A stretch of 64,000 nt of DNA. It comes from Dipetalonema caudispina (Eukaryota; Nematoda; Chromadorea; Rhabditida; Onchocercidae). The stretch's first letter is position 1. The number at the start of each line of letters is the position of its first letter. Location: positions 124,001-188,000 of the forward strand of contig JABVXV010000023.1 in the NCBI GenBank assembly GCA_013365325.1. Direction: 5' to 3'. Below are positions 7,901 through 44,932 of the stretch, piece by piece. The translations under genes and the position numbers were made by a program. The notes under the pieces were generated by a model that worked only from the letters and a program-made list of their open reading frames with translations, made no database searches and was not told the DNA's origin.

Positions 7901-10549
7901 TATAGGAATGCGTAGGCAGTCACTTCCCTAAAATTTGGGAATTTTTTGCATTAAATTCACTTCAACAGGTAATAAGTAAGTCCCTGTACAAACATTTAAA
8001 AGTGTAATCAGTCTGTTTTCCTCACGAGTGGTTTCACATTCCTAAGTGATAGCTCCTTGACATTTCCGCTAGCAGTAAAAATATGAAAACATTACAGAAA
8101 TCACGGAACACGTCAAACGTGTTTTCAGAAATTCCACGCTTACAGAATATTTGCCATATGAAATGACGTTCATAATTCAAAGACTGATGTATGTCGTTTG
8201 TAATTGGTTTCCCGGAAAAAGAAAGGATAAGAATAATCTAAATAAAATCAGGAAAAAAGTTTTTCAAAATTCTAATAATTTTCTTGACATTGTGCTCTTT
8301 CTTTCTTCAATTGAAAGTTATTTTTTCTTCTCGGTAAAAAAAAAAACGAGGCTACCTTTTTTTCTTCAAATGATTTGTATTGAAAGTAAAATGATTCAAG
8401 GGTGATCTCAATCAATTTCATCAATATACGACAATCATTTAATAGTTTAATTTCGACATATTATAAAGATAAACATTGAATGGTAAAAGTGCAAATTTTG
8501 ATTTTGTTCTCAGAATTGAATCATTTGTAAGAGGCAAGTAAACAATATGATTGACTTGAAAGCGATCTTGTCAATTTTGCACTGTTTGCCAGAAATCAAA
8601 TGAGAAATGAAAAATAAGCTCTCAATGGTGCAATTAAATTGGAAAGGGATAGGAACACTCGTTCTATTTCCATCGGAAGATTTCTCGAGAGAATTCGCAA
8701 GTTTCACAATTGCTGGACAAACCAGCCAATGGATTGCATATCGAAATTTTCATGAAATTTTACTTCGCTGATATATCGATCCAATTTCTCAGTAATTCAT
8801 CTTCCTGTTCACGCTAGCATTACGAGAAGTGCTGAGAATATACCTATGAAATCGTAAGTAATATTCAAATCTTCCTAGCTTCTTTGCACAATAAATTTAT
8901 ACAAAGTAATAATAATTCAAGGATATTTGAAATTTTTCGAAATTTGGTAAGTCGAAATATTGAATTTTTCAACATCCTATTCAAATTTGACATATTACAC
9001 GTCGCAGCTATCATTTGTTTGAAATAATTTTTTCTTCGAGCAAAAATTCAAAAAAAAGAAAAAAAAATGAGAGTTGAAAAATCATAGATTGCTCAAAGAT
9101 GCGTGGTTCTTCTGATATAATTCGTGCGTGTTAACGTGATTTCACTCACTCTACGTAAGTAGTGAAAAACTCATTCAATAAATGCGCACAAGAAATAAGG
9201 TGAAGAATAAGATAAAATTTAATTTGAATTCCTTTGAGAAATTAGAACAGTTCCTCAGTCCTATAAGGTTGAATCAGAAAGATGTTGGGATAAAATTTTA
9301 TTAAATTCAAAAATTTATTTCTCGACAATGAAATGAGTACAAATTTTCTGATTTTAAACTACGAAAACGATACAATAACTGATAAAAGCATAGAAAAAAT
9401 TATAGAACTATATCACTTAGTCATAATATAAAGCACAAAACATCTAATTGAAGCACTACAAATATTCATCTGATCGAAGTGTTATCAAAGAGGAAGTAAA
9501 AGTATTTGATTGTTTAGGTATATTTTAATTTTAAGAATCAGAACCAGTATAACTAGAAATTATGAAGTATTTTCCTTCAATTATATGGAAGTGAAAAGAA
9601 CGACAGAAGTTTTTTCTTGAGGGAGAAACTTTAAACAGAGAAATTCTTTTTATCCGTTTTTTCTTTCACGAACGAATCCTACAAATGCACAAATCGATGA
9701 AGCCTTTAGCTTTTATTAAATTGATTTCGCTCCCATGTCCAGCTCAATTTATCGATTTCACAAGGCTCATTTCGATGGCCCAGCATGTCAACATTATGCA
9801 TGACCAAACGCATTAGCTCACATATTATTGCAAGCTTTTAATATAAGCATTCACAATTTCTGCAAATTATAAAATATTGTGAAATGACAACTACCGACTT
9901 TCTTCCGGAATAACTGAACGGACGGATGGCATGCAGAAATCATTCATCTTAAAGTTGTAATGTTTCAACTTCAGAAGATAAGTTGATGTATCCAACAAGG
10001 ATGCATAACGATCACTTTGTTATTAGAAAATGACAGCTATTGATTTTTTCGGTTGGTAACAGATCTTTATACTCTTTCTGATTTTTACCAGAAGTTTTAT
10101 CTGGAATAGCATCATAAAAAACGGGAATGATATAAAATTTGTTGAAGGAAATTACATCAATCATCTTTTGCTAAATATAACTCAATCGAATATATTCCTA
10201 CTGTTGGACAAGTTGAGTTTAAAGTCTTCGTCGGTGTGTAATGGATGGTTTTCTGATGAAATTGAGAAATATTTTTTAGCCACTGTTCCATTGTGAACAT
10301 GGAGATTGAAAATCCACTTCTTTATTTCGGTCTTAGTCGATAACAAGTTTTTGAATTTGAAATTTTCATTTCATTGTGAAAATCCACGAGAGATATAATT
10401 GACTATTCCTAAAGAAGGAATGCCATAATTTGAGATTTCAGATCTTAATTATTTCTGATGTGCATTTATTCAGGGAAAATTCTTTTGCTACATATCTAAC
10501 TGAACAATCTATTCATCTCCAAATAAAATTAACCTGTAAAAGTCAAACA
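4950..10549. other. 5.6 kb region, no gene supported
   Basis: This lies between the CAP-Gly exon and the 3' end of the TRPM2-like gene. It probably contains introns or upstream exons of the CAP-Gly gene, but no exon could be supported. An acceptor-like TTCTCAG near 5357 opens a short frame (NQKTVSTSVQKTSILPDF) that has no donor, so it is not called. It holds an AAGT/GAAA microsatellite at 6376-6420 and scattered A/T runs. A TTTATT at 10465-10470 is a plausible minus-strand AATAAA poly(A) signal for the TRPM2-like gene, about 80 bases past its stop. Confidence 0.4.
6376..6420. repeat. AAGT then GAAA microsatellite
   Basis: About six AAGT units run directly into about four GAAA units. Simple sequence repeat seen directly. 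Confidence 0.85.
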
Positions 10550-13500
10550 TTATGTGGTTTTACACTGTCGAATATCGGTGAAGAAATCTAAGGAAGCATT
10601 GAGGTATTCTCGATCTCGGGTTGATAAAATATCTTCACTACAACTTCGCCAATTCAATGTGCCATATGTTGATAATGTTTCAGGTGATCTGAAAATTCTT
10701 AATATGAATCTGTGAATGAAATGAACTAAAAAACATCGCTCACACATCGAAGTAATTAACAATGTGAATTTAGATATTTCTCATTTATGAGATAAATTTT
10801 GTTCCAAATTCAAATTTATAATATATTACGGTAAAAGTGGTATAAAGTTTTTAATAAGTGAATGAGAAATTACATTATTCATTCTAAAACAGGTCACTGA
10901 AATAACAAAAATACAAAAAGCTGGCAAATTACTCATACAATATCTGAATTCACTTTTGAGCTATATATCCGAGAATTACCAGAAAATATATACCCGAGAA
11001 AAATCGCCCAGATATCATGCTCCATCCATGCATTATCTGTATCACGTGTGTCCATTATTGGTACACGTTTCACGTGTGCTACGCCATTGTTTGTTTCGCC
11101 GACATTTAATAGATTCTGATTGGAGAAGATCTACAATATTTCCTGACAAATAAGACTGCTTGCATACTTTACTAAATTTCATTGTAATATTTGTAACATT
11201 AAAAAATCCTATTATCTATATTAAAGTTATTAAAAAGTGAAAATTAAAAAAAGGTAAGTTCTACCAATGATTACCGCATTTTTTAGCAATCACTTTTGAA
11301 AGCTCTGAGGGATATTGCGAAAATTAATTTAACTCGGATAGAGTGAAAGGTGGAAAAATCTTTTTCTGAAAGCTCAATGAACATATGCACATTATAATAG
11401 TTTATTTTAGACTGTATCCTAAATGAAGTTACTTATTACGTAAGGCCTATCATGGCGTAACGTTAAATTTTAGAATTGCAAATACTTTTATACACTTCTG
11501 CTATCAGAAAGAAGCCTCATAAAGTACAAGTAACGAACAATTTTTTGTAATGTGACGCATTACACGCGAAGAATTACTTAAATAACAATTAATCAGTGGC
11601 CCATTTTTATGGTATCAAATGAGGCTTGGATATAGTTTTGTAACAATACATTTTTAGCCTAGTGTTATTTTTTTTCCTAAGGTTGTTATTATTGTGAGTT
11701 TTGAGTGGGCGAGATTTGCATTTAGACCTAAATACAAGGTAGAGTTTACTTGTTTAAAGCATATTTGCTTATATCAAATTTTGAGAAATCAGTCGATTTA
11801 CTCCATACCAATCAATATCTCTTCGCTATTGAAAATATAAAAATGGCCCTAACTGAGATGAAAGTTCTGACAAAATAATAGCAACCAGAATTAGCCATTC
11901 TGCTGAGAGCTTTACAGAATTTCATGTCACTTCTGGATGTAAGCTGTCGAAGAACGTCAAATATTCTACTTCGTATGAGCTATGTTTTTACCGATAAATA
12001 AGTTTCATATTAATTTTTCTTTTTTATTGTAAAAACAAACATTTGCGTATTTTCAGCCATATAACTTAAAAATCATTCTTTGTCATTTTCGAACGTTAAT
12101 TTTATTTTTCAGATGTCACTGTCTATCACGTACAATTTTTTGGCGTATGATGTCGAAGAAATTACGTAGAAATAAATTTCCGAAATTCTAAATAATCTAA
12201 AATTCATGGTTTTCTCAGTCAAACAGTTAATTTTTTTTTTTGTTTTGCTCACGTGAATATCCGAATCGTTGAACAAATGGTTGCGCAAAATTTGCTGAAG
12301 TTCTTCGTCACAACGCCCATTGTTTAATCGCCAACGAGTTGGAAACGTATTTCTTTCTAGTAAAATCTGAAATTTATTCAACAGGATTAAAGAAATGTGT
12401 TCATCACTCAGCGATTTGAAATTGAACAATCACGCGGGAAAAATGACGTAGTCAAGTAACGCAAGAACCGTTACTGAATATCAAAAGATTTAAAATTAAA
12501 TACCGTTAAATGGTTATTACTGGTTCTTCGTATTAAGATGTAGACGCTTAATAAGTTAGCGCCAAACTTCAGATGATTTCCACGCCCGGCAATACCTTGT
12601 CGACCATTCGGATTCATGGGTAAACCGGATGCATCAACTGTAAACGGTAGTGAAAATGAAAACAATTCCAACATTTTATTTTGTTGCCATCGTTTCCAGC
12701 ATTTTCGTAGCAAATTCAAGTTCTGAAATTTAAGCTATGACCTTACTAAAGTTCACAGAAATCATTCCATATAAAGTAAAGCAGACCTAAGAAATGTTTG
12801 ATAAATTAGTTGACCCTAAATTCACTTATATCATGTTTTTAATCAGTCATTTAATTTAGTCGAACTATTAATTACCTCTGGCGTTGAAACATCGACGTAC
12901 TTTTGTACATCACTTGGAAAATCATCAATAGGTTTGCAATAAAATGGTGGACAATAGTTGGATATCAATGTATGATGAGGTCGGTATTTTTCCGCTACCA
13001 CTAATTTCCGAATATTTGCTATCCGATCATACGGAACGCTTTCGAATGAACTGTTCCAGGTATCATTTGCGTCTATAAATAAATGTGATTTTTTGAACAG
13101 TTTGGACGAATTAGTTAATTCTCATAAAAGTTCGATTAAAAAAGCGTCGAAATATACAGCGGCATGATGCCTTTGTTAAGATTCTTTTGACGTTGGTTAT
13201 ACTTTTAGAAGCTGTCGAAAAATACTGTGATACGGCTAATAATCGAATTTGTTCTTGTAATTGACGATTTTCATTGTCACTTTTAAAACTGATATCCGAA
13301 TTTGTCGATGTGATCATAGTATCACTCCATAGATTTATGGATTTCGTCTAAATAGACAGTTTGATTTTTCTGTAATTTGTTCAAACGATGAAAAAAGTCG
13401 TTGTGTAAACGAAATGGCAATGTACAAAATTTTTTGATACTAAGAATTTTAGAAGAAACAGAAATATTGGCAGAAGGATAGCAGAATGTAACTTTAGAGC

Positions 13501-16500
13501 CATCCAAATTGGATTACTTATGGAATGATCTTAAAATTTACTCTAAATTGGGAGTCCAAAAATGAACATCCAATCGGAAATATATTTCGGCTTATATTAT
13601 TAGCAAATCGATTTGTGGTAGTGCATAATTTTGAAGTTTGTTGATTGTAAACAATATCCGGATGATCCAAATTGACCATATTTGGACTATGACAAGAATT
13701 AAAGAAACAACCGTATGTTCGACAACATGAAGCACCGAGAAAGAAGACTGGTGTAAGTGGTGGCGGTAATGGAGGACGAAATCTGAATTGTATGATACAT
13801 ATAATGTAGTGATGGAAAGATATATGGATCGGATTCGGTAAAATTTAACGAAAAGCCTAGACAGAATTCTTTTTAGAAATGTTTCTTTCAGGAACAACGG
13901 GTGTAAAATTATTAGACTTCAAAAGTTTCAGTACAGCATAATCAAAATTCGACATTATTGAACATATCATTGAAAGTAATAAAAATATTATAAGTGTGAT
14001 TTGAATTAGCTTACCTCAAATCTTCAACCAATGAATAAAGTTGATACTTCCAAATTTTCTCTGCTTCATTGTCTACTTCTTTGGCTGTTTTGGAAAAGAA
14101 TGCAAAAAGGATTGGCCAACAGATTAGTTTCAAAACAATGAAATATTCTAATACCACTAAATGTCCTATCCAATTTTGAGTTGGACAACTGTAATCACCA
14201 AAACCACCAACTGCTACACAGCGATCGCGATTACGATAATCGCCGAGGTACGTCTTTTTACAATATTCCGAATCTTGAAGCTCTACAAGAAAGTTTTCTA
14301 GTTTTGAGAAAATTCTGCGAAATATTGCGGTATTATTTCAAAATTATTTATGCGCTTGAATCGTTCGTCTAGACATAGCTTTAGCATCAATTCATTGTCT
14401 TTGGATCCGGAAATTTGCCGCATATTGAGGTTTTTTTTTCATGTTTTAGGCGATTTTATACCTATATAGTCTAACTAATAGATAAGCAAGCATAAATATA
14501 TGTGTACTTTGAATTAAAGCGCATAAAAATGAAAATTATCATCACTATTTTTGGACAGAAATAGGTTACCATCATATTGAATTTGAAATAATGAAAGCCA
14601 AGCCCAAGAAAATGCCTTTGAAATTAATAACCAGGTTAAAGCTTGATCCGGATACAGTAATGAACGAACTGCTATCGCATTGCTGTAGTTTTGAAATTGT
14701 TATAAAACGAGAAGCTTCAATGTTATAGTTTTAACGATTACGATGATTAATAATTGCTCCTTGAAAAAAATTTCGGTAACTATTCTCATCCTTAAAAATC
14801 CTTGAAATTATCCGATACTACTCTTCCCTTAGTGATAATCTATTTTGTATAATTAGTATAAATCACCATTATTACAATAAATTTATTACATATAATAGAA
14901 ATATTTACAAACCTTCCAATGATTAAAGCGATGAGTATCAAAAAATTGAAAAAATCCCTGATAATCATAAGTTTAACCCGTACGACAAATGCGCCAAATG
15001 TTTGTGATAATGGGACAAAGTGAAATAATGTTGAGTAACATAAATAAATTAATAGAAATGCTGAGGAGATTCGAGTAGCATATGATGTATGGAATGGCTG
15101 AAGTAGAAAATTAAACAAAATTTCTTATTGTAAATTCTCAAAAGTTTATGACTTCGACATGTCCGTGACTTTTACAGTTGATAATTCCTCAATTCAACCG
15201 ACTTATTCAAATAACTTCAAGATTTCAATCACTAAATGTTAAGTTATGAAAGAAATAATTCTCAAATTTTTATTGCCATTTATCATCCCGGGAATACTAA
15301 AATATTTTACCTGTACTATTAATTTGAACAAAAAGGATGTAAAGAGATAAAAACAAACCATAGAACTGATTGGAACTGTTAAAGAAAGCACTTTTAGGAT
15401 GAGTATAATTAGAAGATGCAAAGCTATCACAATAATATCAAAAAAACGCCAACGAAGCTGGAAATTTTTTTATTTAGTTATTCGATTGCATTATATATCA
15501 TTTAATTATTCAGTTACGAAAAGTTCCAATACTTTTAACATGTCATCATTTGTATGATTCGGCTATTGAATTAGTTCATAAATTTTAAGAATTTGAAATT
15601 CTTATTATCTAAATTTAAATTTGAACAAATCATACCTGACGTAAAGGAGCACGTTGTATGCGATTCGAAAATACCCAAATCGATTCAACGAGCGATAGAA
15701 ATGTCCAAAGCCATATCATAGCATCCAAAATGAGGGATCCACAACCAGGCAGTGATATCTGATAATACGAATTTTAAGATATTCAATCGGAATAACTATG
15801 GCGATTCGAAATTTATTAAATCATAAGATTGGAACAAAAACGTAATGATTTTCATTACGCATATAAATATATTCCTGATAAGTTTTAAGCAATCCCAAAC
15901 GATACGTTACTATCTATCTGCTTAGAAAATCATCATTATCCTCCATTATTCCGTTTAATAGAATAATCGAGGATTCTGATGATAACGATGAAAATATTTT
16001 TGAAGGATTCTCGAACTAACTGTGTATGCAAACAAAATGATGTGAGTAAGTCGAAAAACAAGAGAAAGCCAATATTTAACAATTGGTGTAGAATAGAATG
16101 TTCCGATAGATATGGAAGAGATTCGTCGCTGAATTCGTCTTCGTTCCTGCTTTACCTTCGATGTCGGAGATACCGGATCGAATCCTCTCAGCATCAAACC
16201 TTCGAATGATTGATGACCTAAGGAAATTTCTACATCATCGTTGAACATATGAATTTATAAATGAGATTGATATTAACATTTAATGATCAAATGGAAGAGA
16301 TATCACAGGATATTCAAAATGAATAGCAAGCTTTACCTTCCATTAGAAGACAAGAACTTGTTGACGTTTCACCTGGTGATCGTTCACCACGGATAACTGG
16401 CATGATGAGTTCATCACGCTGCGTAGTTTTATTGGAAACACAACTAAAAATGCACCTTTTAAACTTTACTAAATTACCATTTTACTTTCTTTCGTATTTC

Positions 16501-19500
16501 TGCATGATCATTTGCATAGTTCGTGTTCAGAACATGCCAAATTGATTCTATTCGATACTACCTATGAACAGAATATTTCCTTTTAGTATTTTCCTGTCCG
16601 TGGAATTGTAGTAATGCTGCTGTGGGGCTAACAACTAAGTTTCGATCATGCAAATAACTTTCTGGTGCACGATATCGTATCCACCATTGAATTGGAATTA
16701 TCAATATCGATGCAAGCAAAATTTTCAACCATTGTGGTAGAAGTACAGAACCTTTTGAACAAGCAACCTATAAATTTTATGACATAACAAGGTACAAAAT
16801 AAATACAGTAATTAAAATTTAATTAATTTTGTAAGCATAAAGAGATCATATGTTTATTTATGTTCATTATCATTATAACAATATAAATAAATTAAATCAA
16901 ATGTGCAAGCATAATGAATATTTATCGATACCTGTAATTTACCATATAAAAGTCGATAAATCCATTTTTGACAACATTGATGAGCAACAAATTGTTTATT
17001 GTTGGTCTGAAAATTCTATTCCAAATAGTTCCAGCAAATAAAGAAACTATTTGAAATATTTGACAGTTGTTAGATTAGTTAAAAGAGTGCTACCTGAAGT
17101 GCAAGTTCTGTTAGTGTTAAACCACCAAATGATTCTAATGGCAAGCATAACAACCGATAAGTTTCCCGCGGTGATTCAATATTTGCAGCATCTAATACTG
17201 CACAAGCATGAGTACTGAACCATCGTGCTGCTTTTCTCAAATCATTCTCGTATAAAAGATAATCGTGTACCTGTAATGATCAGAAAATAATCGTACATTT
17301 GTGATGAAATTTTGAATAAATCCAAGGAAAAGACATAATTTCCAATTCTGTTATATTAGCATATATCAAAGCCATACTAATTAAGTTATTTGTTCGTTAA
17401 TCTAATTAAGTAAATAATGTTGAAATATACAAAATTGTTTAATAAAGATATCAATTGCAATTGACAGGAAAATGCATAAATTTCATGATACATTCTTAAA
17501 TTATTACAATTTATCAAACCTCAAAAGCAAGCGAATTACATATCCGTGCAAGAATCACTGCTAATGATATTGGTTCAAAAGAATATGCACATAAACATTT
17601 TGCTAATTCGAGACGATTCAACAATACCGACCATACTGCCAATATTTGAAGGCATTGATTATGATTACATATCTGCTGATGAAAATATGACGCTGGCAGC
17701 AAACTTTTAATACCACCGGATAAATAAATCTAGAATAATTTTTTAAAATTATTCTTTACTTCATATCATTCATTACTGATACTCAATTGCGATTTTCAAA
17801 TGTTTAAATTAATTCATCATTACCAGGAGTTGTTCCAGTTGTTCAATGAAAGTCATATCAATTTCGGCCACTGGCGCATTTCTTCCCAGGTAATGAGAAA
17901 CAATGATATTGTTAAAAAATGCCTAAAATTTAAGAAATCTAGCAAATATCATCTCATCTCAAATTTATTACTTCTCTAAATTGCATCCTTTTTTTTCCCT
18001 AAAATTATATCATCTCAAATTTCCGGATCATCCTGTCAAAATTAGATTATTCTCTAAATAATTACTTGATCTGAAGCATGTTGCATTAGTTTCGTTAATA
18101 GATGTAATGAAACTTTCAATGAAATATTTTGCTCCAATATGGCTGCTAAAATGACCAATCGGTTGTCTGATAGTAAAGCCTCTTCGAAAAGATCATTGAT
18201 ATCCTAAAGAATGCTAACATTTGGATTTATTTAATTGCATCGATTCTCTTGAAAGCTAAATTTCGATTTCTTGTTTGAATTTATTTCATCCGACAAAATC
18301 TACTATTTGTCACAAGCCAAAAATACTATATTCAATTTGTAATCGGAAAAAGTGTGCTTGTGAAATTCAGTGAAGAGATTAAGTGGTGAAATGGAGTTTT
18401 GGAAATAGATAGAGATTAGTTGGACTATTGTAATTTCAATATTTGAAAATTTGTCATTACCGTATTATTGTGAAGTGTAGTCAGATCGGTGGATGAAATA
18501 ATGGATGGGACATTGAGTTTTACTGCAAGTCGTAGCAAACGATGGATATCATTCGTATCAATGGCACTTTGCATGCATAACTTTAGCAAATGATCACGTA
18601 AGCTATCAACCTGAAATGTGAAATATGAAATAGAAATTTGGAGACGGGAGAAGATATTGTTTAGAGCAGGTTGTTGAAATTTTACAAATTCATATAACTT
18701 TTTACTTGTTGGACTCGACCTTTCCCGAGTCAGTTGTACTGTTACTCTCAGCATGACATTTCAAAAATTACCTGTTCAATAAGTATGCAAGCCAATAATG
18801 GTACTTCTCCGCAACCGGTAGCCAATGAAACAATAATATTTTCCTTAGCTTCTTCAATCAAATTATTCCCTTGCAGAAGACTATTTGGAGCTAAACTACG
18901 CAATTCCGAATCCAGCCATTCCAACCAACTTTCGAAATGAAATGCCGAACTACGATACAGTAACCAGGAACTGTTCAATATGGCACATAATTCACTACCG
19001 TCCTGAAATTCTTTTGGATTCGGAAAATTCTTTCCTTTATGGATTCGAACAGCATTAGTGCAGTTATCATTTCTACTTCAATGTAGCCTCAGATTAGCTA
19101 TCTGATGATCTCAAATCTTCATTGTGTGATTTGTTTACCTGCAAAATGACCACTGGTATGCCACATTGTAAATGCGCTCGAAGTTCAGTAAGTGATGACA
19201 GTTCACTTCCACAGAATAACGCTACTGGTACAGGTAAATTCTCATGCTCATTAGGCGATAACAATACAGTTTGCGATGGTGATCGACAAGTAGTACCGCT
19301 TTGTGGTACTCCGATTAGTAGTGCTGGAATGTTGTGACCGTTCCCTTTCGAAATTTTCGTAGAAACTATCTCTATGGCAAGAATTAATGATACAATCAAT
19401 AGCTCTCTCAGTGACATTTCGTTAAAATGGTTTTTTACACCGTTTTAATTCCCTAAATATTCTATGGAATCAAATTTCACTGTACACTCCTTAAAATTTT

Positions 19501-20834
19501 TTAGAGTTTACCGGGTGGCGGTATTGAGAGTTTCATAGTGATAAGACTTCTGAACAATGCTAGTCTCTTGGTCGGTAATAATTGCTCCATCCATAGTATC
19601 ATCATTGTTTTGCATTGTGTATCAACCATTGGCACGCGATGCGTTTGCTGTTGGTCGTTTACCACACAGCTAATATCATTTACAATTAGCAGTAGCGTTT
19701 CCACGCTTGTTGAATTCTGAATCAAACTTTAGAAATTGTTGCTTGCACTCAAATATTTCATAGTCTATTTGAATTTATCAATTATGCTAGACTCAATTTT
19801 ATATTCTACAAAAAAAAAGAATCGGGAATTTTTCAAACTGCCGCAAAATTATTCAACTTTGCTGTGCAAATATTCATAATTCACTTACCGAATATTCTTT
19901 AGCACGCACGGTATTAACAGCAGCATAAGCTAACGGATCACGTGCTTCACCAGATATTACAAGCCATGAATTACAGTTCAAGATAATTTGTGATAGAGCT
20001 TTTTCGATTTGCTTTTGTTTCTGCAACATCTATTACATCATTTTACAAATTCTAATGGGTCATTCAATTCCTCTCTAAAATTAGAGGACAGAAAAGGAAG
20101 TATCAACAAAAAGCAAAACGTAATGTGGAATGGACAAATTCACAAAATATTGTTAATGTAATATTCGACAATTTCTTTTTTTTGCCAATAAAATGGCTTC
20201 TTCTCCAACATTCCGTCTTATGAGCCTGAAGTTTTGAAAAATTGAATGCCATCAACTTAATTCCTTTTCATCGAAATGAAATCAAATTTTGCAAAATTAC
20301 TTTAAGCGCGTGAAAATCCGTTCAGATCAAAAACAACGAGAAGGCAACCTCTTATGCAAATCATTTCATTTTTAAACAGCAAAAGCCTAATATAAAGTGA
20401 TGAGCAAAAGTAAAAAATCGGAAGATACGGTGGCTAGATATAAGCAAAGTTTGTATTTTTGAATTATGAAAATAGAATATTTTTTTCTTGTATGAGTGTA
20501 AAGTCTAAATGAAAAGTAAAGGTAATGTTTTAAAGATTTGAAAAGGATTAATTACCTGTAGATCGATAATATTTTCACCGGAAATTAACGAAATGATGAT
20601 ATCAGGAATACCTTCATCGATGTAACAAGAAAATGCAGCCAAATGACTGTAAATATGTTTCACCACTTTGGGAATTGTTTTCTGAGATCGGATTAACAAT
20701 GCCGGACAAATTTGCTCTATCAAACCTCGACCATCTCTATACGTCGATTCCACATATAGTTTAACGTTAGTAGCATGTAATTCATCGTCACGTGAAACTT
20801 CCTCACCGTTTTCCATTAGCAACTGATAACGCAC
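10550..20834 (-). CDS. TRPM2-like cation channel with C-terminal NUDT9-homology domain
   Basis: Large plasma- or organelle-membrane cation channel gene of the TRPM family, about 1,490 residues. Exons, 5' to 3': 20834(or 20816)-20556, 20020-19889, 19716-19512, 19404-19139, 19002-18772, 18610-18461, 18203-18066, 17922-17824, 17729-17520, 17270-17094, 16767-16562, 16443-16337, 16217-16021, 15758-15636, 15457-15311, 15097-14913, 14682-14570, (14474-14462), 14314-14015, 13782-13542, 13347-13203, 13072-12876, 12722-12504, 12366-12253, 11130-10994, 10688-10550. All junctions keep phase. The N-terminal TRPM (SLOG/LSDAT) region contains [16 protein letters not shown] and [10 protein letters not shown]. 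Ankyrin-like helices follow ([27 protein letters not shown]). Membrane segments begin near residue 780 ([19 protein letters not shown]). S6 is followed by the TRPM-typical [17 protein letters not shown] and a proline run RPPLPPPL. The tail matches NUDT9-[32 protein letters not shown] and a C-terminal WRSC...YLNASLDFF. The first methionine is at 20816, and an upstream exon may be missing. C. elegans CED-11, a TRPM-like protein of dying cells, is the suspected ortholog. Confidence 0.88.
14462..14474 (-). CDS. putative 13-nt microexon of the TRPM2-like gene
   Basis: The upstream exon (14682-14570) ends in phase 1, and the next exon (14314-14015) starts one base before a codon, requiring phase 2. 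A 13-nt segment between acceptor CTATTAG and donor AG|GTATAA exactly bridges this phase gap, adding V-R-L-Y and the first two bases of R. Only this segment satisfied both splice sites and phase by eye. Without it the pore exons cannot be joined. Confidence 0.45.
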
Positions 20835-23018: not shown

Positions 23019-25756
23019 TTATGTACAAAAACCTTGTGGTGCATAACATGGCTTATTACCAGCTACTGCATATAATTTAGGCTTTGATGTCATGCAAACA
23101 CAAACTCGTAAGGCATCTATCGAAGCAGTTAATGAAGGAGATGAACTCAATGGTAATGTTTTCAGGCTATTTCCAAAGTAGAGTTTTTTGGTCGAAAACA
23201 TTATTAGACCATCAGCCTGGAAAAAACAAAAAGTTGAAATTATCATGAAGAATAGTTATTTTCTAAGCAAAGTTATAGAGCCAAATCAAAAGTTCTTCAT
23301 CATTGTATTTGATAAATTTTCGAATAATGGACAACTTAAAATCAACAGAAATGCCAGTTTTCCCAAAATAGCATAAGATCTGAAAATTTTCGAAAAAATT
23401 TATATTTGCTGCAAAAATGAAAATCGAAACTGCAATAAAAACTAATGATAAGATCAATTAATATTGTTTTGACAAAATTTATCATTGCAGTGGATAAAAT
23501 TTTCTACATGGAATAAATTCACTGTAAGATGAACTTTAAAAGAGAAAAGATGGATGAGGATGCAGGTGAAAGGGAAGGAACGTTGAAGATAAGCAAATAT
23601 AAGCCAAGTCTATCTGTCCTAATTTCCATCAAGAGAAGACAAAATGAAGTAGATAAGAGTATTTTTTGTAGTTTAAATAAATTTAAATTATTAATTATCC
23701 AAACCGTTGTTCCCAGTGAAATACCATTTCTAGCGGTTAAATTCATTCGTTTTGCCTCCAAATGTATTCCCTCATTACCACGTAATCCCAAATTGACCAC
23801 GTCTACGTATAAATTATCATTGATCGGTGAACGTATCTGTAAAATCATTCAAAAAATTAATTTTTGTTTGATTGAATTCTACAGGTTGGCTACAAAGTTG
23901 AGTATAGGTAGTAGAATTTTACATGTTTGAGTGGATTCAATTCTATAATTAAATTGCTAAAAAAATTTAGATCTCTGTTAAACTCAGATTTAAATACTTT
24001 TCACCTTATCCGAGTTAAAATCATTAAAGTTGCACAAAATCATTCATTTGGACAAATTATTAAACATCTGAACTGTTTCAGTCTTAATAATTTCCTATTA
24101 TTATTTCGGATCATATCGCAATTCAAAGAAACAGAAAATTTTATTTTAGACCGAGCTATAAATTTCAATGATTTTGAACCTGAGATAAAGCTAAGAAGTA
24201 GAATGATGAATTTCAGCAATTTTGATAATTTGTTGAGTAATTAGTCCTTAAAATTTCAAAATTTCTTAGAAGCAAAGGACCTTATCTGTTACAATTTGGG
24301 CAGTAGATATTTTCTTAATTCTGTTGTCCACACGAAGCAATGGATGTTGGGCACTGAAGTATGGTCGAAATGCATTTTTTATCTGCAACATTTAAATCAT
24401 ACATCCTTAATTACTTGCTGATTTCTTTTTCTTCCTTTTTTTTTTCATATCGACTATAAATAAATTAACAAAATTTCTGTATTTTTGTTTCCTCAGATAA
24501 ATTAACACACTAAATTCAATCTTTTTAGCTCCCTAAAAATTCCTTTCAAATCATAAATGGTTGCAGTAACGAACGGTAAATTGGTCGCTGTTCTCAAAAC
24601 GACAAATGCCATCCTGTAGTACCAGACGACTTTGAGTTGAGGTACTGCTTATTATTACCTAAAAAATAATTTACAGCTTTTGCATTCACTTTTATGTTAG
24701 CTTCTAGGCGTAAATTTCTTCAGAACAACAAGAATGACGGACAATGAATGAGATTTATTCGAACTCTACGGAGAAATATCATCCATCAAAAATTAAAGAA
24801 ATCGTTAATGGAATAAAATTAGCATAGACGAAATGAAACAAAAGCAAGTAGAGAAAGCCTGGTGGAATTTTTCTTTGAAACAAGTCGAACATATATTATT
24901 TTATCATATAAGTCTATTTAGAAGTCAAATCTCAAATAAGCCATTGGATAATTAATTTGAAATGTCTTGAACTTGAAATTTTGAGTACTTTTTAAACCCT
25001 GGGAATTATTCTCAAATGAAAGTGAAACAGCTTACCCTGGAACCTACAATTGTCAAATCTTTCCCTGTACCTCCATAAACGAGACCACTTTTTGCGATCA
25101 CTTTACCCAGATGAATTTCATTAGCTGAGAATTGCAAAACGACATCCTCTTTACCGGTTTCCGGATCATATCGGTTATGAAATTGTAGGTGTTTCATACC
25201 TCTTGTTGATATACCCAGCATATGAATTATGAAAAGATTCACCTGAAGATATTCACAACGAATCCATAAATTATCAAATTTTATTACAAAAATAAAAAGA
25301 AGTGATAATAGTTTAGTTAATTGTCTTATTTCGATAAACAATAAAGGTTGTAAATTACCTGTCTCAACATTACTCCTCTATTGACCCTTCAGATTTCTAC
25401 ATGACATCTAATTCAGCTCAAGTAAACGGAAAGAAAAAGAAAAACGGAAAAATAAACTAATCGTGATTGGAAGAAAATACAATATAAAAGCTTACAATCA
25501 ATAAGATAAACGTAATAATCGTTAGTACCACTAAATATAACACCAAAATCCATAATCGTTTCTTGCGTAATCCAGTCACGTGTAATTTGTACTCAATATT
25601 ATCCGGAATAATAGGTGGTGGTGATTCTTTGAAATCCAGAAAACGTGAATTTTGCTGATCATCATCATCAGCGGTACTACGCAAATATATCGGTCCACCA
25701 GCTGGCATTACACATTCAAAACTAACATAGTTGTATTGCGTTAATTCTTCACTCAC
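23019..25756 (-). CDS. sgcb-1: beta-sarcoglycan-like protein
   Basis: Single-pass type II membrane protein of the dystrophin-associated sarcoglycan complex, expected at the muscle plasma membrane. Exons 5' to 3': about 25708 or 25756-25496, 25242-25036, 24658-24575, 24382-24281, 23836-23705, 23216-23019, all in phase. Predicted length is at least 311 residues, against about 318 for vertebrate beta-sarcoglycan. A short cytoplasmic N-terminus ends in basic TGLRKKR, followed by one membrane helix (LWILVLYLVVLTIITFILLI). The ectodomain has the family's beta-rich repeats, with RGNEGIHLEAKRMNLTARNG closest to the beta-type RGNEG motif. It ends in the cysteine cluster typical of beta, gamma and delta members: VCVCMTSK...KPCYAPQGFC. 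The open frame starts at GTG (25756); the first ATG is at 25708, so either translation starts there or a small upstream exon is missing. The gamma/delta subtype is the main alternative. Confidence 0.88.
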
Positions 25757-27117: not shown

Positions 27118-30100
27118 TTAAAGCTGCGAAATAATTATCTACAATCAAACCTTCTTTTCCTTTCTTACCAAAAACAGGGCAAAGATAAGTCATAAATGAG
27201 AAATGCGAAATTTACCTTGTAGTCTCTAAGGCAGGACAGACAAATACGCGGACGATCTGTGTGATCAAATGGACATTCCTTTTTAACACATAACTTGTCA
27301 TAACGACAGTAACCATGAAAATAGTAGCATTTCTCGCCTGGACAGTTGGGGAAATTCCTGCAGATAAAAAACAGAAAGTTGAAATTTCCTTCAAATCTGC
27401 CTAAAACGTTTGAAAAGTGACAAAAACATTTTCTGCAAAAAAAATAGTTGCACAGAGAAAACACATACTTGCACTTCACCGGCGGTCCATGTGGACAGCG
27501 ACCTCGGCCGCGTTGGGCAACTCCAGCTGAACGACCTCGTTGACGATCAGCGAGATAGATCTTCTCTTTCAGACATTCCTGAAAATAAGGATGGTTTAAA
27601 AATACTATTTGGAATGAAAACTGATAGAGGATAATAGCAAATGATAACGGAAACTCGATAAAATTTAGATTTAATCTTAAAAAGAAGGACCTGAACAATG
27701 ATAAGCAACTTAATGACTTATCATAGTAACCTAATACCATACAGTCATCAGAATCAACAAAGTAGTTATGTCAATGAATCATCTGAGATGTTGAAAAACA
27801 AAAATAATACATCTGAGATGTTGAAAAACAAAAAAAAAACAAAAATAAGGAATATAAAAACATAAAAAATTACTTTATAGATATGATCCCGAAATTCTTC
27901 CCAATTTGAATCTTTTGCGCCACTTATTTTTCCACCGAAATCGTCTTTGCAAAAATCACATAGCAAACGGTAGTCGGAATGGCGTCGTTTCATATGTTCG
28001 CAAAGTTTTTGCACGCTTGATGCTTGCTTCTCACAGTGAGGGCATGGGAAGCAAGCACCATGGGCACGGATTTCGTGCTCACAGAGTTCACGAATGGTTT
28101 CGAAATCACGATCACATTTGCGGCAAGGATATTCATAAACCGGACGAGCAGGGCTGAAAATTCATGAAAATCAATAATGTTAGCAAACTTATTTCTGGAA
28201 TTCAATTAAAAACTTAGAAAATGTCTTGTCATGAAAAAGCAACAAATTATGGAGCAATGTTTTCAAAGCAACATGCGTTTTTTGTAATCCCTAAACGGAA
28301 TAAACCGACTGTATTTTTTTTGAAACTGTCATATTCGTCATAAAAACACTGACAGCAATGTCAATGATTTGCGGAATAATTCCTCTCAAATCTCTAGCGT
28401 CTTTAATGTATCTGACTTCTTCAAATGGCATTTCTCACCATTTAGAAGTGTAGAGTACTTGATATTTGGGCCTTCACAATTTAAAGTAATTCTCAAACAA
28501 ATTCCGCTGAAACTCAACGCCTTGAAACAGAACAGTAAAACATTCGTACAGACGTATATAATCGGTCCATAATTCGACTTTTCCAACAATCTGTTAGAAA
28601 ACTTTCCATAACCATTACTTTCTTGGTTAAAATTAAAATTTAGGAAACCGAAGAATTAAAAATTAATAGTTTCTAACGTGCTATCTACGCACAAAATATT
28701 GAACATATGCATAGTATTTCTAGACTACAACATAATTTCACCTGCGAATAATTTCAATAATAATGAGAATGGTAATAACAATAATGATAGCACCAGTGTG
28801 TTTGCTTGTATAGACGCTGCCATCATCATAAGACCGTTGGGATGGGTATGCCGAAGAACAATGATAATAATAATAATAAATAGTGAGGCTGGACTAACCG
28901 GATACAACTAACACCGTCAACACAACACTGCATTGAAAAAAAAGTTAAAATACTATGCAAATGAGAATCAACAGTACTGAGAAAATAAAATCAACTGAAA
29001 AACCAAATACAATTGTTCATACTCTAAGATTCACTAAAATATAAAAAACTGTAGAAAAAATAAATCGTTAAAATTAAAGCTGCTAGGAAACTGGTTTAGC
29101 TATGAACTGAAGTATTCTTATATCAGCCTTTAAAATAGCTTAAATCCTCCCTTACTGATCTAATCAAATAGTAGACAAAAGTTTCGTTGTCTCATCGTCC
29201 TGCGGAACTGATCTTAAAAATAACATTTTTTTGAAATAACTAAATATAATATTTGAGTAACTTAATGTTCTCATTTATAGATGATAAATCAATAAAATCT
29301 ACCTCATCGCTTTGAAAGAACCATAAGTGTCGCGACTTGAAGACGACGAACTACGCGTAGGACGACGTCTCGGGCTACGACTACGTGATACCTTGCGACG
29401 ACGCATCGGGCTACGACTGCGACTATATGAGCGCGAACTACGACGAGCCTTCTTCTTAGACGACTTGCGACGCGAGCGTGAACGTGAACGTGAGCTGGCG
29501 CGTCGTGGTGAACGAGAACGTGAGTGTGACTTAGTCCGTGATCTCGATCGGCTTCGCGAGCGCGACTTCGTGGAAGCTGTGTGTGTGCTTGAGCTTGAAG
29601 AACGCCGACGACGACGACGATGACGTCTTGATGAGGTGGAAGGTGATTTTGATCTTGATGCATGCTCTTTTTTTGCACGATTCCTAGGAAAAAGGCTGAT
29701 ATTATTTTTGGAGATGTTATATAATCCCAACAATGTAAAATTAACTTTATTTGTTAGTGTAGCTCTCACAGAGAGCAAGTTAAAGTATGATATTTCAGAC
29801 TATCTTTATCGTAACAACTGCTCCTTTTCTACGATTATCATGTCACAATAAATTTATGAGAAGCTTAAGGGATAAAAAATGTATACTTGTATTTCTATTT
29901 TAGAAAAAAAAAGGAAACTAACTCTCTAACAGAAGCGCCTTCTTTCCTAGCAGAATCATCTGACTTTATTGACTTGTCGCTTTCGACCGCATCATCTCCT
30001 TCTCCTTTGTTACTTCTGTTATCATCATATGCCAGTTTCGTTTCACCATTATTAACTTTACCGTCATCATCCAGATATTCTGACTTCTCATCACCATTCA

Positions 30101-41749: not shown

Positions 41750-44700
41750 ATGTATCATACTGCAGTAATATTAGCTATCGTTTTCACTTTTTCAACGGCG
41801 CAGAATGCATTCTTCCGGGAAGCGGACTATCGTCAACTCTATCCAATGTTATCAATAGCTATTCGCCTATATAATCATGCTCATGTATTGCCATATTTTT
41901 TTGGTTTATTAGAGAATCTTGACTATCCGAAGGATCAGATTCTAATTGATATATACATGGGAACACATATTGATGCAACTTTGCCCAAAACCAAACAGTC
42001 AGTTTTATTTATATAGCAAAGCGTGATACATTTATTGCAATTGCATGCCATAATGTTTGCATTAGATGATCATAACTTGCAGTTAAAGATCACTAGCAGT
42101 GATATTTAGTAACAATTTTTATGACTGTTTGCAAGTAAATTACAGATGGTCAGACGATGCAAGGAAGTATTATCGTTCCATTTTTCTTACTACTGATACG
42201 AAAAATTGGCAAGAAGAGGCATTAATGAAAGCAAGAAATAGTAGAGCAAGCTATGTGCTTTATCTAAAGGTACACATGATGTGTTGCTTCATATTTGGAT
42301 TTTGAATAGAAATTTCGAATCTGATACAAATATAGAATATTTTGAAGTTATGATACAATTCGCAAAGAGTTTTAAAGTGTTTAAAACTGAAATGTAAAAA
42401 CGATCAAAAATCATTTCTTTGCTTTTCTTAAATTACTATTTTGAAGAAAAAAATTCAGGGTGATCATTTGTTGACGGATCACAGGATTCTCCAAACATTG
42501 ATGCAAAAGAAGAAATTGGCCATTGCCCCTCTTCTTTTTACGCCGTACGGTGATCCGCCTACAATCTTCATATCTGAAGATTACAACAATCGAAAAGAAA
42601 TATCGACCATTGAAGTAAGTTTATACAGTTTTTTTATCATAAATTTCTAATTTTCATGAATTTGGCTGGAGTAGCATGTTTAGTAGCAATGGAATTTGGT
42701 GGGATGTTTGGTAGCAATGGATTTTTGACTATTGTCATGCATTTAAGGATTTCAACAGAAATGCGGAAGATGGATATCAGGATAATGCCAGTTAGTGTCA
42801 TTTTCTAAAATTATTCAAATGGGTCTATTATAGGTTAAAGTGATTCCAGAACCGTTGTTAATAGATTTGGCACATGGTGACTCATCATTTCTAACATTTT
42901 CCTCCGAAAATTTATACGGTTATTCTAAAAATGATTCTGAAGAGCCAAATGCTGTACTTGAGAATTCGGCATCTCGGATGAACATACCATTTTTCTTGGA
43001 TAATGAGCATTTTTATGGATATTTCTTCAATCATTCATTACATTCTCTGGATTCTCAACGAAAATTGGTTAGTTTATTTGAAGAGATATTTTGACTCGAT
43101 GTAATTTATTGTGTGACTCTGAATTTCCATCTGCACAGTCAAACATACGAAACGTTGATTTGAGAAATTAGTCAAAGAACTAAAGTTGTTGTCCTAAAAT
43201 GTAGTCATCGCTAAATTTATTTCGCATTTTTCATTATCGAGACTTGTGTTTTATAGTTTGAGCAGTGCGTAAGATATTTGGCAAAGGAGTTGTTATTCGA
43301 GATGGTGGAATCTATAATAATTTGAATAAAGTAACTTCTGTTACAGCTTCGTTATCTGTTAGCCGATTGGATTGCTGATAGTGGTGTGATGCCAATTGTA
43401 CACTCATCGTTCCTCAAAGTCACTTATCCGAGACCATCGCTTTTTGCGGTTGATAAAATCTATGTTATCAATCTCGAACGAAGAAGCGAAAGGTATTTGT
43501 AAAAGTTCTAAGTTAAATAAAAACGATTATATTTGACCATATTTTACCAACAGCATTATAAGGATGTCTTTTCTGCGTTTCAGTTTTCTATTATTCTCTA
43601 TGGTTTTATAGTGAACGCACATTTGTGGAGCAAATTTATTTTTTATTTGTTAATTCTTTTTTTTTTTTTTTTTGATAGTTTCTAGCCGAATTTTATGGAA
43701 ATAGTTCTTGAAAAGTAATTTTTTATACTCTAAAGCTGTTAAAACTGTTTAAGAAAAATTAAAATGATGGAATTATTAAAACTGATGGGATTTGAATATA
43801 CGTGGTGGAAAGCAACTGATGGTCATCACTTGGATTCGGAACCTCTGTACAGCGAAGTTAAATTTTTGCCTGGATATGAAGATCCATACTACAAAAGACC
43901 GATGAAAGCAGGAGAAGTAAGTAGAGTTTATGGAAACACAACATTAATGTAAAAATTGGTGGAATAATGGATGTTTTAGTTTTTTTTTTTTTTCGATGTA
44001 TCCTTCAGCTGCTTCACTAAAATAACAGCCATCGAATCGTATTTTAGGATGAAACTTAAATTTTTTGTTTTAAGGTTGGTTGTTTTTTGAGTCATTATCG
44101 CATATGGCAAGAAGTAGTCGAAAAAAAAATGGATCGTGTAATTATATTCGAAGATGATTTGCGCTTTATGGTTAATTCAACGGATCTTCTGAAAGAGCTC
44201 ATTGAAGATATTGATAGTTCGAGAATTGAATGGGATCTGGTATATTTGGGCAGAAAACGGCTGGAAGGTGCAAATGAAAACTGGGTGCCTGGTAAGTTAT
44301 CAGATGCAGACTTTGCAAACTCCATTGATTTTTGGTTAAGTTTTGAGGACTTTTATAAACATTTTACAGTATGGAGCTAATTATTTGTAATTCAGCCATT
44401 AATAGCGCTTTCAAAGAACTTTTTGGGCTAGACGTACGGTAAGCAGCTTCTATTTCGGAAGAACTCCATAATTCCAATTCTCTCTAAATGTGCAGGTTGG
44501 GCAGTGAGAACTTGGAAAAGATTACTTGGGTAATCTTTTCACTCAGTGAAACTTCATTACACCTTACTCAATTTACATCTATGCATCTTTGTAGGTCATC
44601 GACACCTAAGTACTGTTGATTATTCATATTGGACACTTGGTTATATGTTGTCATTGAATGGTGCCCGAAAACTGCTTGGTGGCAATCCTTTGAAAAAATT

Positions 44701-44932
44701 TTTACCAGTAGATGAATATATCCCAATTATGTTCAATAAGCATCCAAATACGACATGGATAAATGCATTTCCACATCGCGATTTAATTGCCTATGCGATT
44801 TATCCGACCATTGTTGTTCCAGAAAGGTACACCTATCAGCATGGTTACTTTAGTGATACAGAAGATTCGGATATTGTTGATGTAGAAAGTATAACACGGA
44901 TAACCAAAAAAACAGATAAAGATGAATTATGA
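41750..44932 (+). CDS. procollagen galactosyltransferase (GT25 family)
   Basis: ER-lumen enzyme of the COLGALT/GLT25D family, which adds galactose to hydroxylysine of collagens. Eight in-phase exons: 41750-41997, 42146-42269, 42459-42614, 42834-43067, 43347-43492, 43754-43916, 44075-44291, 44595-44932; 541 residues (human COLGALT1 has about 622). An N-terminal signal peptide (MYHTAVILAIVFTFSTAQNA) and C-terminal KDEL fit ER retention. The N-terminal GT domain is weakly conserved: where human has VDADNL this protein has LKGDHL, so the DxD is lost. The C-terminal GT25 domain is well kept: KIYVINLERRSER, FLPGYEDPYYKRPMKAGE, GCFLSHYRIW, IIFEDDLRF, DLVYLGRKR, YWTLGYMLSLNGARKLL, FLPVDEYIPIMFNKHP and HGYFSDTEDS. 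Probable substrates are cuticle and basement-membrane collagens. It lies on the same strand between cullin-1 and an STK16-like kinase. Confidence 0.92.

Follow-up and report, generated by a model that had tools for sequence, protein, structure and literature searches.

Does a filarial nematode carry a TRPM2-type chanzyme, a channel that ADP-ribose both opens and is hydrolysed by? The question is raised by 64,000 nucleotides of the Dipetalonema caudispina genome (assembly GCA_013365325.1, contig JABVXV010000023.1, positions 124,001 to 188,000; this whole stretch is called the window below), in which a preliminary description had placed a gene for such a channel, ending in a complete NUDT9-homology (NUDT9-H) tail. 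Judged by its sequence, the gene is the filarial orthologue of nematode ced-11, which codes for a cation channel of the TRPS family. Its tail combines a NUDT9 fold with the loss of the Nudix core and is most likely a pseudoenzyme rather than an ADP-ribose switch. The gene is essentially ordinary overall and already known from related worms.

The channel gene and its relatives

We identified one minus-strand gene in the window (10550..20816), with 26 exons coding for 1450 residues between a start codon at 20816 and a stop codon at 10550. All 25 donors are GT and all 25 acceptors AG, the phases agree, and the joined frame has a single, terminal stop. In tblastn searches of the window, the proteins of Loa, Acanthocheilonema and Brugia matched 25 of the 26 exons, that of Toxocara 22 and that of Caenorhabditis briggsae 17, with no matches outside the model, and the Loa protein had no matches in five single-base shuffles of the window. 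Given the splice sites, the fitting phases, the single end stop and the matches absent from the shuffles, the model is beyond chance. The start codon that fits the orthologues replaces the earlier proposal of a start around 20834. A draft model of 1431 residues, which left out exon 3, began exon 4 at a different acceptor and had a longer exon 16, was dropped after comparison with orthologues, and the draft 5' extension and split exon 21 were replaced on the same grounds. The full-length protein search, the Pfam domain scan and the alignment of the core to TRPM chains were run with this draft, in which the tail exons 22 to 26 are identical to those of the final model.

The full-length search, in which the 7980 best candidates were scored, collected 41 proteins, namely 36 CED-11-type nematode proteins and five fish TRPM1. 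Identity to the final model reaches 84.7% for Loa loa LOAG_00938 (P0001, over residues 1-1450), 82.0% for Elaeophora, 81.5% for Acanthocheilonema and 73.8% for Brugia. The TRPM2-like domain PF25508 scored above the Pfam cut-off and the channel core could be aligned to TRPM2 and TRPM3; the match of the MHR1/2 region to human TRPM2 was weak (10.7 bits). Two of the ced-11 database models lack channel segments, probably through gene-prediction errors: the S1 region in Brugia (P0007) and S5-pore in Thelazia (P0010). The gene is apparently single-copy in the source genome (78.1 Mb, 764 contigs); all five matches to the tail at E<=0.001 fall inside it, in a search performed exon by exon with only the best candidates scored.

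In an unrooted tree of 20 rows, with two TRPM2 rows, no outgroup and TRPS from nematodes only, the 13 CED-11 rows, window gene included, are on one side of a branch with 100/100 support, the nearest row being Loa. The earlier proposal is borne out in that the gene codes for a melastatin-type channel of nematodes, the counterpart of CED-11, and that its tail is homologous to NUDT9. A separate TRPM-alpha group of five rows, also at 100/100, includes two other loci of the source genome. These melastatin-type channels, presumably GON-2/GTL-like, also differ from the window gene in their filter stretch, GEVYA. The two TRPM2 rows lie outside the CED-11 group and do not form one of their own; human TRPM2 adjoins the CED-11 branch, a placement that is weakly supported (84/66). 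The tree therefore places the gene firmly in the CED-11 group without fixing the position of that group relative to TRPM2, and a position of CED-11 outside TRPM2 rests on a published tree of 267 sequences, in which CED-11 belongs to TRPS (soromelastatin), the sister family of TRPM (PMC13143021). Mollusc and mite TRPS are absent from our tree because a search for non-nematode TRPS with a Plectus protein returned 43 proteins, all of them nematode by their given names. As described in PMC13143021, TRPS proteins, including C. elegans CED-11, share with the window gene the melastatin region, the channel core and a NUDT9-H devoid of catalytic residues, and they lack the TRPM-specific N-terminal cysteine-rich domain. 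The hydrolysis residues are reported there as unconserved in all species examined, which include C. elegans and not Loa; a Loa loa TRPS is present in the sequence set of that study.

The NUDT9-homology tail

The tail motifs named in the preliminary description are all on the minus strand between 13072 and 10550 and in the order claimed (exons 22, 23, 25 and 26), within five exons rather than six. NUDT9-H starts in exon 22 (12876..13072, residues 1183-1248), which holds SNYCPPFYCKP, and continues in exon 23 (12504..12722, residues 1249-1321) with NPNGRQGIAGRGNHLKFGAN and GLPMNPNGRQGIAGRGNHLKFGAN. In exon 24 (12253..12366, residues 1322-1359), the hhalign register gives NHLFND where the Nudix core, REUxEE, would stand. 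DTRDTDNAWME and MDTRDTDNAWMEHDIWAIFLG follow in exon 25 (10994..11130, residues 1360-1404), and exon 26 (10550..10688, residues 1405-1450 and the stop) ends the domain with WRSC...NASLDFF; the placing of these five exons follows the gene model and the profile register. Exons 24 and 25 join without any exon in 11140-12240, a region from which the supposed sixth exon may have come.

The NUDT9 homology of the tail is visible with profile searches and in the hhalign alignment, and the best matches of the protein by sequence among solved structures are TRPM2 chains. The tail of the Litomosoides orthologue retains the NUDT9 fold, with 17-24% identity to TRPM2 chains in structural alignments; further down its list of fold matches come other Nudix domains (MUTYH, NrtR, MutT), as expected for this fold. 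Weak matches to CRASP-2 (one protein at E 0.0077, six chains at E 0.0099-0.029 and one member at E 0.17) were judged to be due to chance. Outside CED-11, the protein that matched the tail profile best was one of Trichuris suis (P0046), which is NUDT9-like, has no Nudix Pfam domain and carries a hydrophobic, membrane-like C-terminus.

We collected 55 CED-11-type rows, including the window gene and one row of unnamed source (P0045); 50 of them contain NPxGR, and the five others are short or partial models. The Nudix core, [RA]E-hydrophobic-x-EE, was found in the last 400 residues of none of these 50 rows, two of which (P0043 and P0045) do not cover its place, and a looser E..EE occurs in three (P0045, P0066 and P0071), never at the Nudix place. 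For the window gene, QILRNH had been considered for that place and was replaced by NHLFND according to the hhalign register. A separate NUDT9-like gene of the same genome (G000:C32:125148-126073) has an intact REFTEE, together with NPVGRTG and DDPRNTDNAWMET. It served as a positive control, showing that the motif test can detect a Nudix core. The window tail differs from this type of protein, the NUDT9 ADP-ribose pyrophosphatases, in being fused to a channel and in lacking the core. Since the core is lost, the tail would not be expected to hydrolyse ADP-ribose, a loss of activity that we infer from the loss of the motif. The tail earlier called complete is so in its fold and not in its active site.

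Human TRPM2 contacts ADP-ribose through residues including Thr1347, Tyr1349, Glu1409, Arg1433, Tyr1485 and His1488, and the share of cells that respond falls by 59% when Arg1433 is mutated (PMC5473349). The first four could be placed in the window gene; Tyr1485 and His1488 could not, and a C-terminal Tyr-x-Asn considered as a match to the residues near 1485 was dropped for want of support in the hhalign register. In that register, Thr1347 is replaced by Leu and Tyr1349 by Val. The window gene keeps Arg1433. Of the 48 nematode rows in which a motif of the TDNAW type is present, 16 have the equivalent of this residue (12 filarial rows, Thelazia, two Toxocara models and Anisakis) and the other 32, among them C. 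briggsae, lack it. The same filarial rows, Thelazia, Toxocara and Anisakis retain both the Asp and the Arg of DxRDTDNAW. In its melastatin region, the window gene has altered TGG loops; in TRPM2 these loops contact ADP-ribose.

How firmly, then, can an ADP-ribose switch be denied to this channel? Several observations weigh against our reading. As a single sequence, the tail matched solved TRPM2 with an E of only 1e-4, and a Pfam scan of nine single-sequence tails detected a Nudix or NUDT9 family in none. Our own tree does not show CED-11 outside all TRPMs, and the role assigned to the tail is one that we infer. The Arg1433 equivalent is present in 12/12 filarial rows with the motif, and the NHLFND register puts an Asp at the Glu1409 place, which is acidic in six of the eight readable filarial rows; with these residues kept, the tail could still bind a nucleotide. 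The register slightly lowered our confidence in the reading that we retain and slightly raised that in the alternative, by which a catalytically dead tail with its fold preserved gates the channel on binding ADP-ribose or a similar nucleotide, like NUDT9-H of vertebrate TRPM2, also described as a dead enzyme that still senses (PMC13143021). Nevertheless, the replacement of Thr1347 and Tyr1349, the Gly of Loa and the Asn of Brugia at the Glu1409 place, the lack of Arg1433 in most nematode rows and the altered TGG loops make such sensing rather unlikely, though worth keeping in mind.

A true TRPM2-type chanzyme (TRPM-beta), opened by ADP-ribose and hydrolysing it, is far less probable. The window protein has the domain order of TRPM2 (human, Nematostella and the choanoflagellate chanzyme), the NUDT9-H fold and the NPxGRxGxxGRG and TDNAW signatures, and both the best solved matches and the weak adjacency of human TRPM2 in the tree would fit. 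However, it differs from TRPM2 in the replaced Thr1347 and Tyr1349 and in the Nudix core, absent from all 50 CED-11-type tails, whereas canonical boxes are reported in invertebrate TRPM2s (PMC6461439), and published trees place CED-11 in TRPS (PMC13143021); the chanzyme label given in the preliminary description does not hold. It is just as hard to believe that the tail exons lie outside the channel transcript, as a separate gene, an alternative 3' end or a decaying remnant. The long intron of 1122 bases before exon 25 might suggest so, but phases and splice sites fit throughout, other filarial database models (P0001, P0003 and P0004) join the same parts and end near the same residue, and identity to Loa is 84% in the tail, against 92% in the channel core, 87-92% in the folded domains and 69-73% in the linkers. 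A TRPS channel with a pseudoenzyme tail is thus the reading that we retain. The tail, placed as NUDT9-H is in TRPM2, would be a folded cytoplasmic domain with regulatory or assembly functions in a tetrameric cation channel. That it is not a TRPM2-style ADP-ribose switch is probable, and the weakest step of this proposal.

Exon layout and neighbouring frames

From N- to C-terminus, the sequence shows the melastatin region, the six transmembrane segments and their pore loop, the TRP helix and finally the NUDT9-homology domain. MHR1/2 starts in exon 1 (20556..20816, residues 1-87), which has the start codon and whose N-terminus matches the orthologues P0001, P0003, P0004 and P0007, and extends over exons 2 (19889..20020, residues 88-131), 3 (19512..19716, residues 132-199; found through orthologues) and 4 (19139..19323, residues 200-261). 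Exons 5 (18772..19002, residues 262-338), 6 (18461..18610, residues 339-388), 7 (18066..18203, residues 389-434) and 8 (17824..17922, residues 435-467) lead to exons 9 (17520..17729, residues 468-537) and 10 (17094..17270, residues 538-596), where PF25508, as detected in the draft protein, starts and continues. They are followed by exons 11 (16932..17006, residues 597-621) and 12 (16562..16767, residues 622-689) and by a variable linker in exon 13 (16337..16443, residues 690-725).

The alignment to TRPM chains suggests that exon 14 (16021..16217, residues 726-791) codes for linker and S1, exon 15 (15636..15758, residues 792-832) for the S2 region, exon 16 (15359..15457, residues 833-865) for the S3 region and exon 17 (14913..15097, residues 866-926) for S4-S5. 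The 3' end of exon 16, which has no tblastn match of its own, was set from orthologues. Exon 18 (14570..14682, residues 927-964) carries the pore helix and filter, exon 19 (14015..14282, residues 965-1053) the pore-loop cysteines, S6 and the TRP helix, after which come exon 20 (13542..13782, residues 1054-1134) and exon 21 (13203..13347, residues 1135-1182), coiled-coil-like by eye and preceding NUDT9-H. An AATAAA 80 bases past the stop (10465..10470, minus strand) is a candidate polyadenylation signal by sequence match only.

Elsewhere in the window, minus-strand open frames at 27165-28161 and 29299-29799 show a C2H2 zinc finger above the Pfam cut-off, a CCCH-like one below it and an arginine/serine-rich stretch. 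Two further open frames showed weak likenesses below the cut-off, one to glycosyltransferase family 25 (44534-44929, plus strand) and one to a sarcoglycan subunit (25012-25377, minus strand).

The filarial pore and its possible role

The selectivity-filter stretch of the window gene is FQIQYD, six residues within one exon (14571..14588, minus strand) and in a frame fixed by its flanks, where most other nematodes have FTTDLS. After SW-W-S-F, all ten readable filarial rows, from nine species, have QIQYD, QIQYN, QIQYG, QVQYD or EIQYN, in contrast with TTDLS or close variants (TVDLS, TTDVS, TTELS, TIDLS, TTDLK) in all 26 readable rows of other nematodes. The respective patterns are thus [QE][IV]QY[DNG] and T[TVI][DE][LV][SK], which also sets filarial CED-11 apart from the readable non-filarial nematode TRPS. 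Every match was inspected; the comparison covers the rows that remain after setting aside three filarial fragments lacking the stretch and 16 other rows unreadable by pattern. In the filarial filter the acid of the third place is lost, and some species have one two places further. Filarial CED-11 proteins (Loa loa LOAG_00938, Elaeophora, Acanthocheilonema, Dirofilaria immitis and Brugia malayi) share the architecture of the window gene, a similar length, 74-85% identity near full length, the absence of the Nudix core and this filter type, and as far as seen they differ from it only as species do. The two TRPM-alpha-like loci of the source genome (G000:C111 and C81) have the filter stretches GEVYAGEID and GEVYAAEID. 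We did not meet the filarial change in literature on CED-11 and TRPS, the scope of which did not extend to Supplementary Figure S6 of PMC13143021 (pore sequences) and PMC9242649 (TRP fingerprint residues); as read from the sequences, the difference may be new.

CED-11 of C. elegans reportedly acts in apoptotic cell shrinkage, a role attributed to it by Driscoll in 2017. In Brugia, adults and microfilariae as well as single muscle cells are reported to contain ced-11 transcripts, and joint knockdown of gon-2 and ced-11 weakened the responses to diethylcarbamazine (PMC7387335). By analogy, the filarial channel probably adds to the muscle TRP currents evoked by this drug. The filter change might be combined with a dead NUDT9-H that, unlike that of rhabditids, keeps the Asp/Arg pair and mostly the acid at the Glu1409 place, which would make filarial CED-11 a nucleotide-sensing channel of altered ion selectivity; we regard this idea as improbable, though marginally less so with the NHLFND register, and if true it could bear on the diethylcarbamazine response of filariae.

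The label of the gene thus changes from a worm TRPM2 chanzyme to a TRPS/CED-11 channel with a pseudoenzyme tail, and with such a tail ADP-ribose hydrolysis, and probably gating, should not be assumed for it. The filaria-specific filter, for its part, gives a channel linked to an anthelmintic a concrete difference that can be tested.
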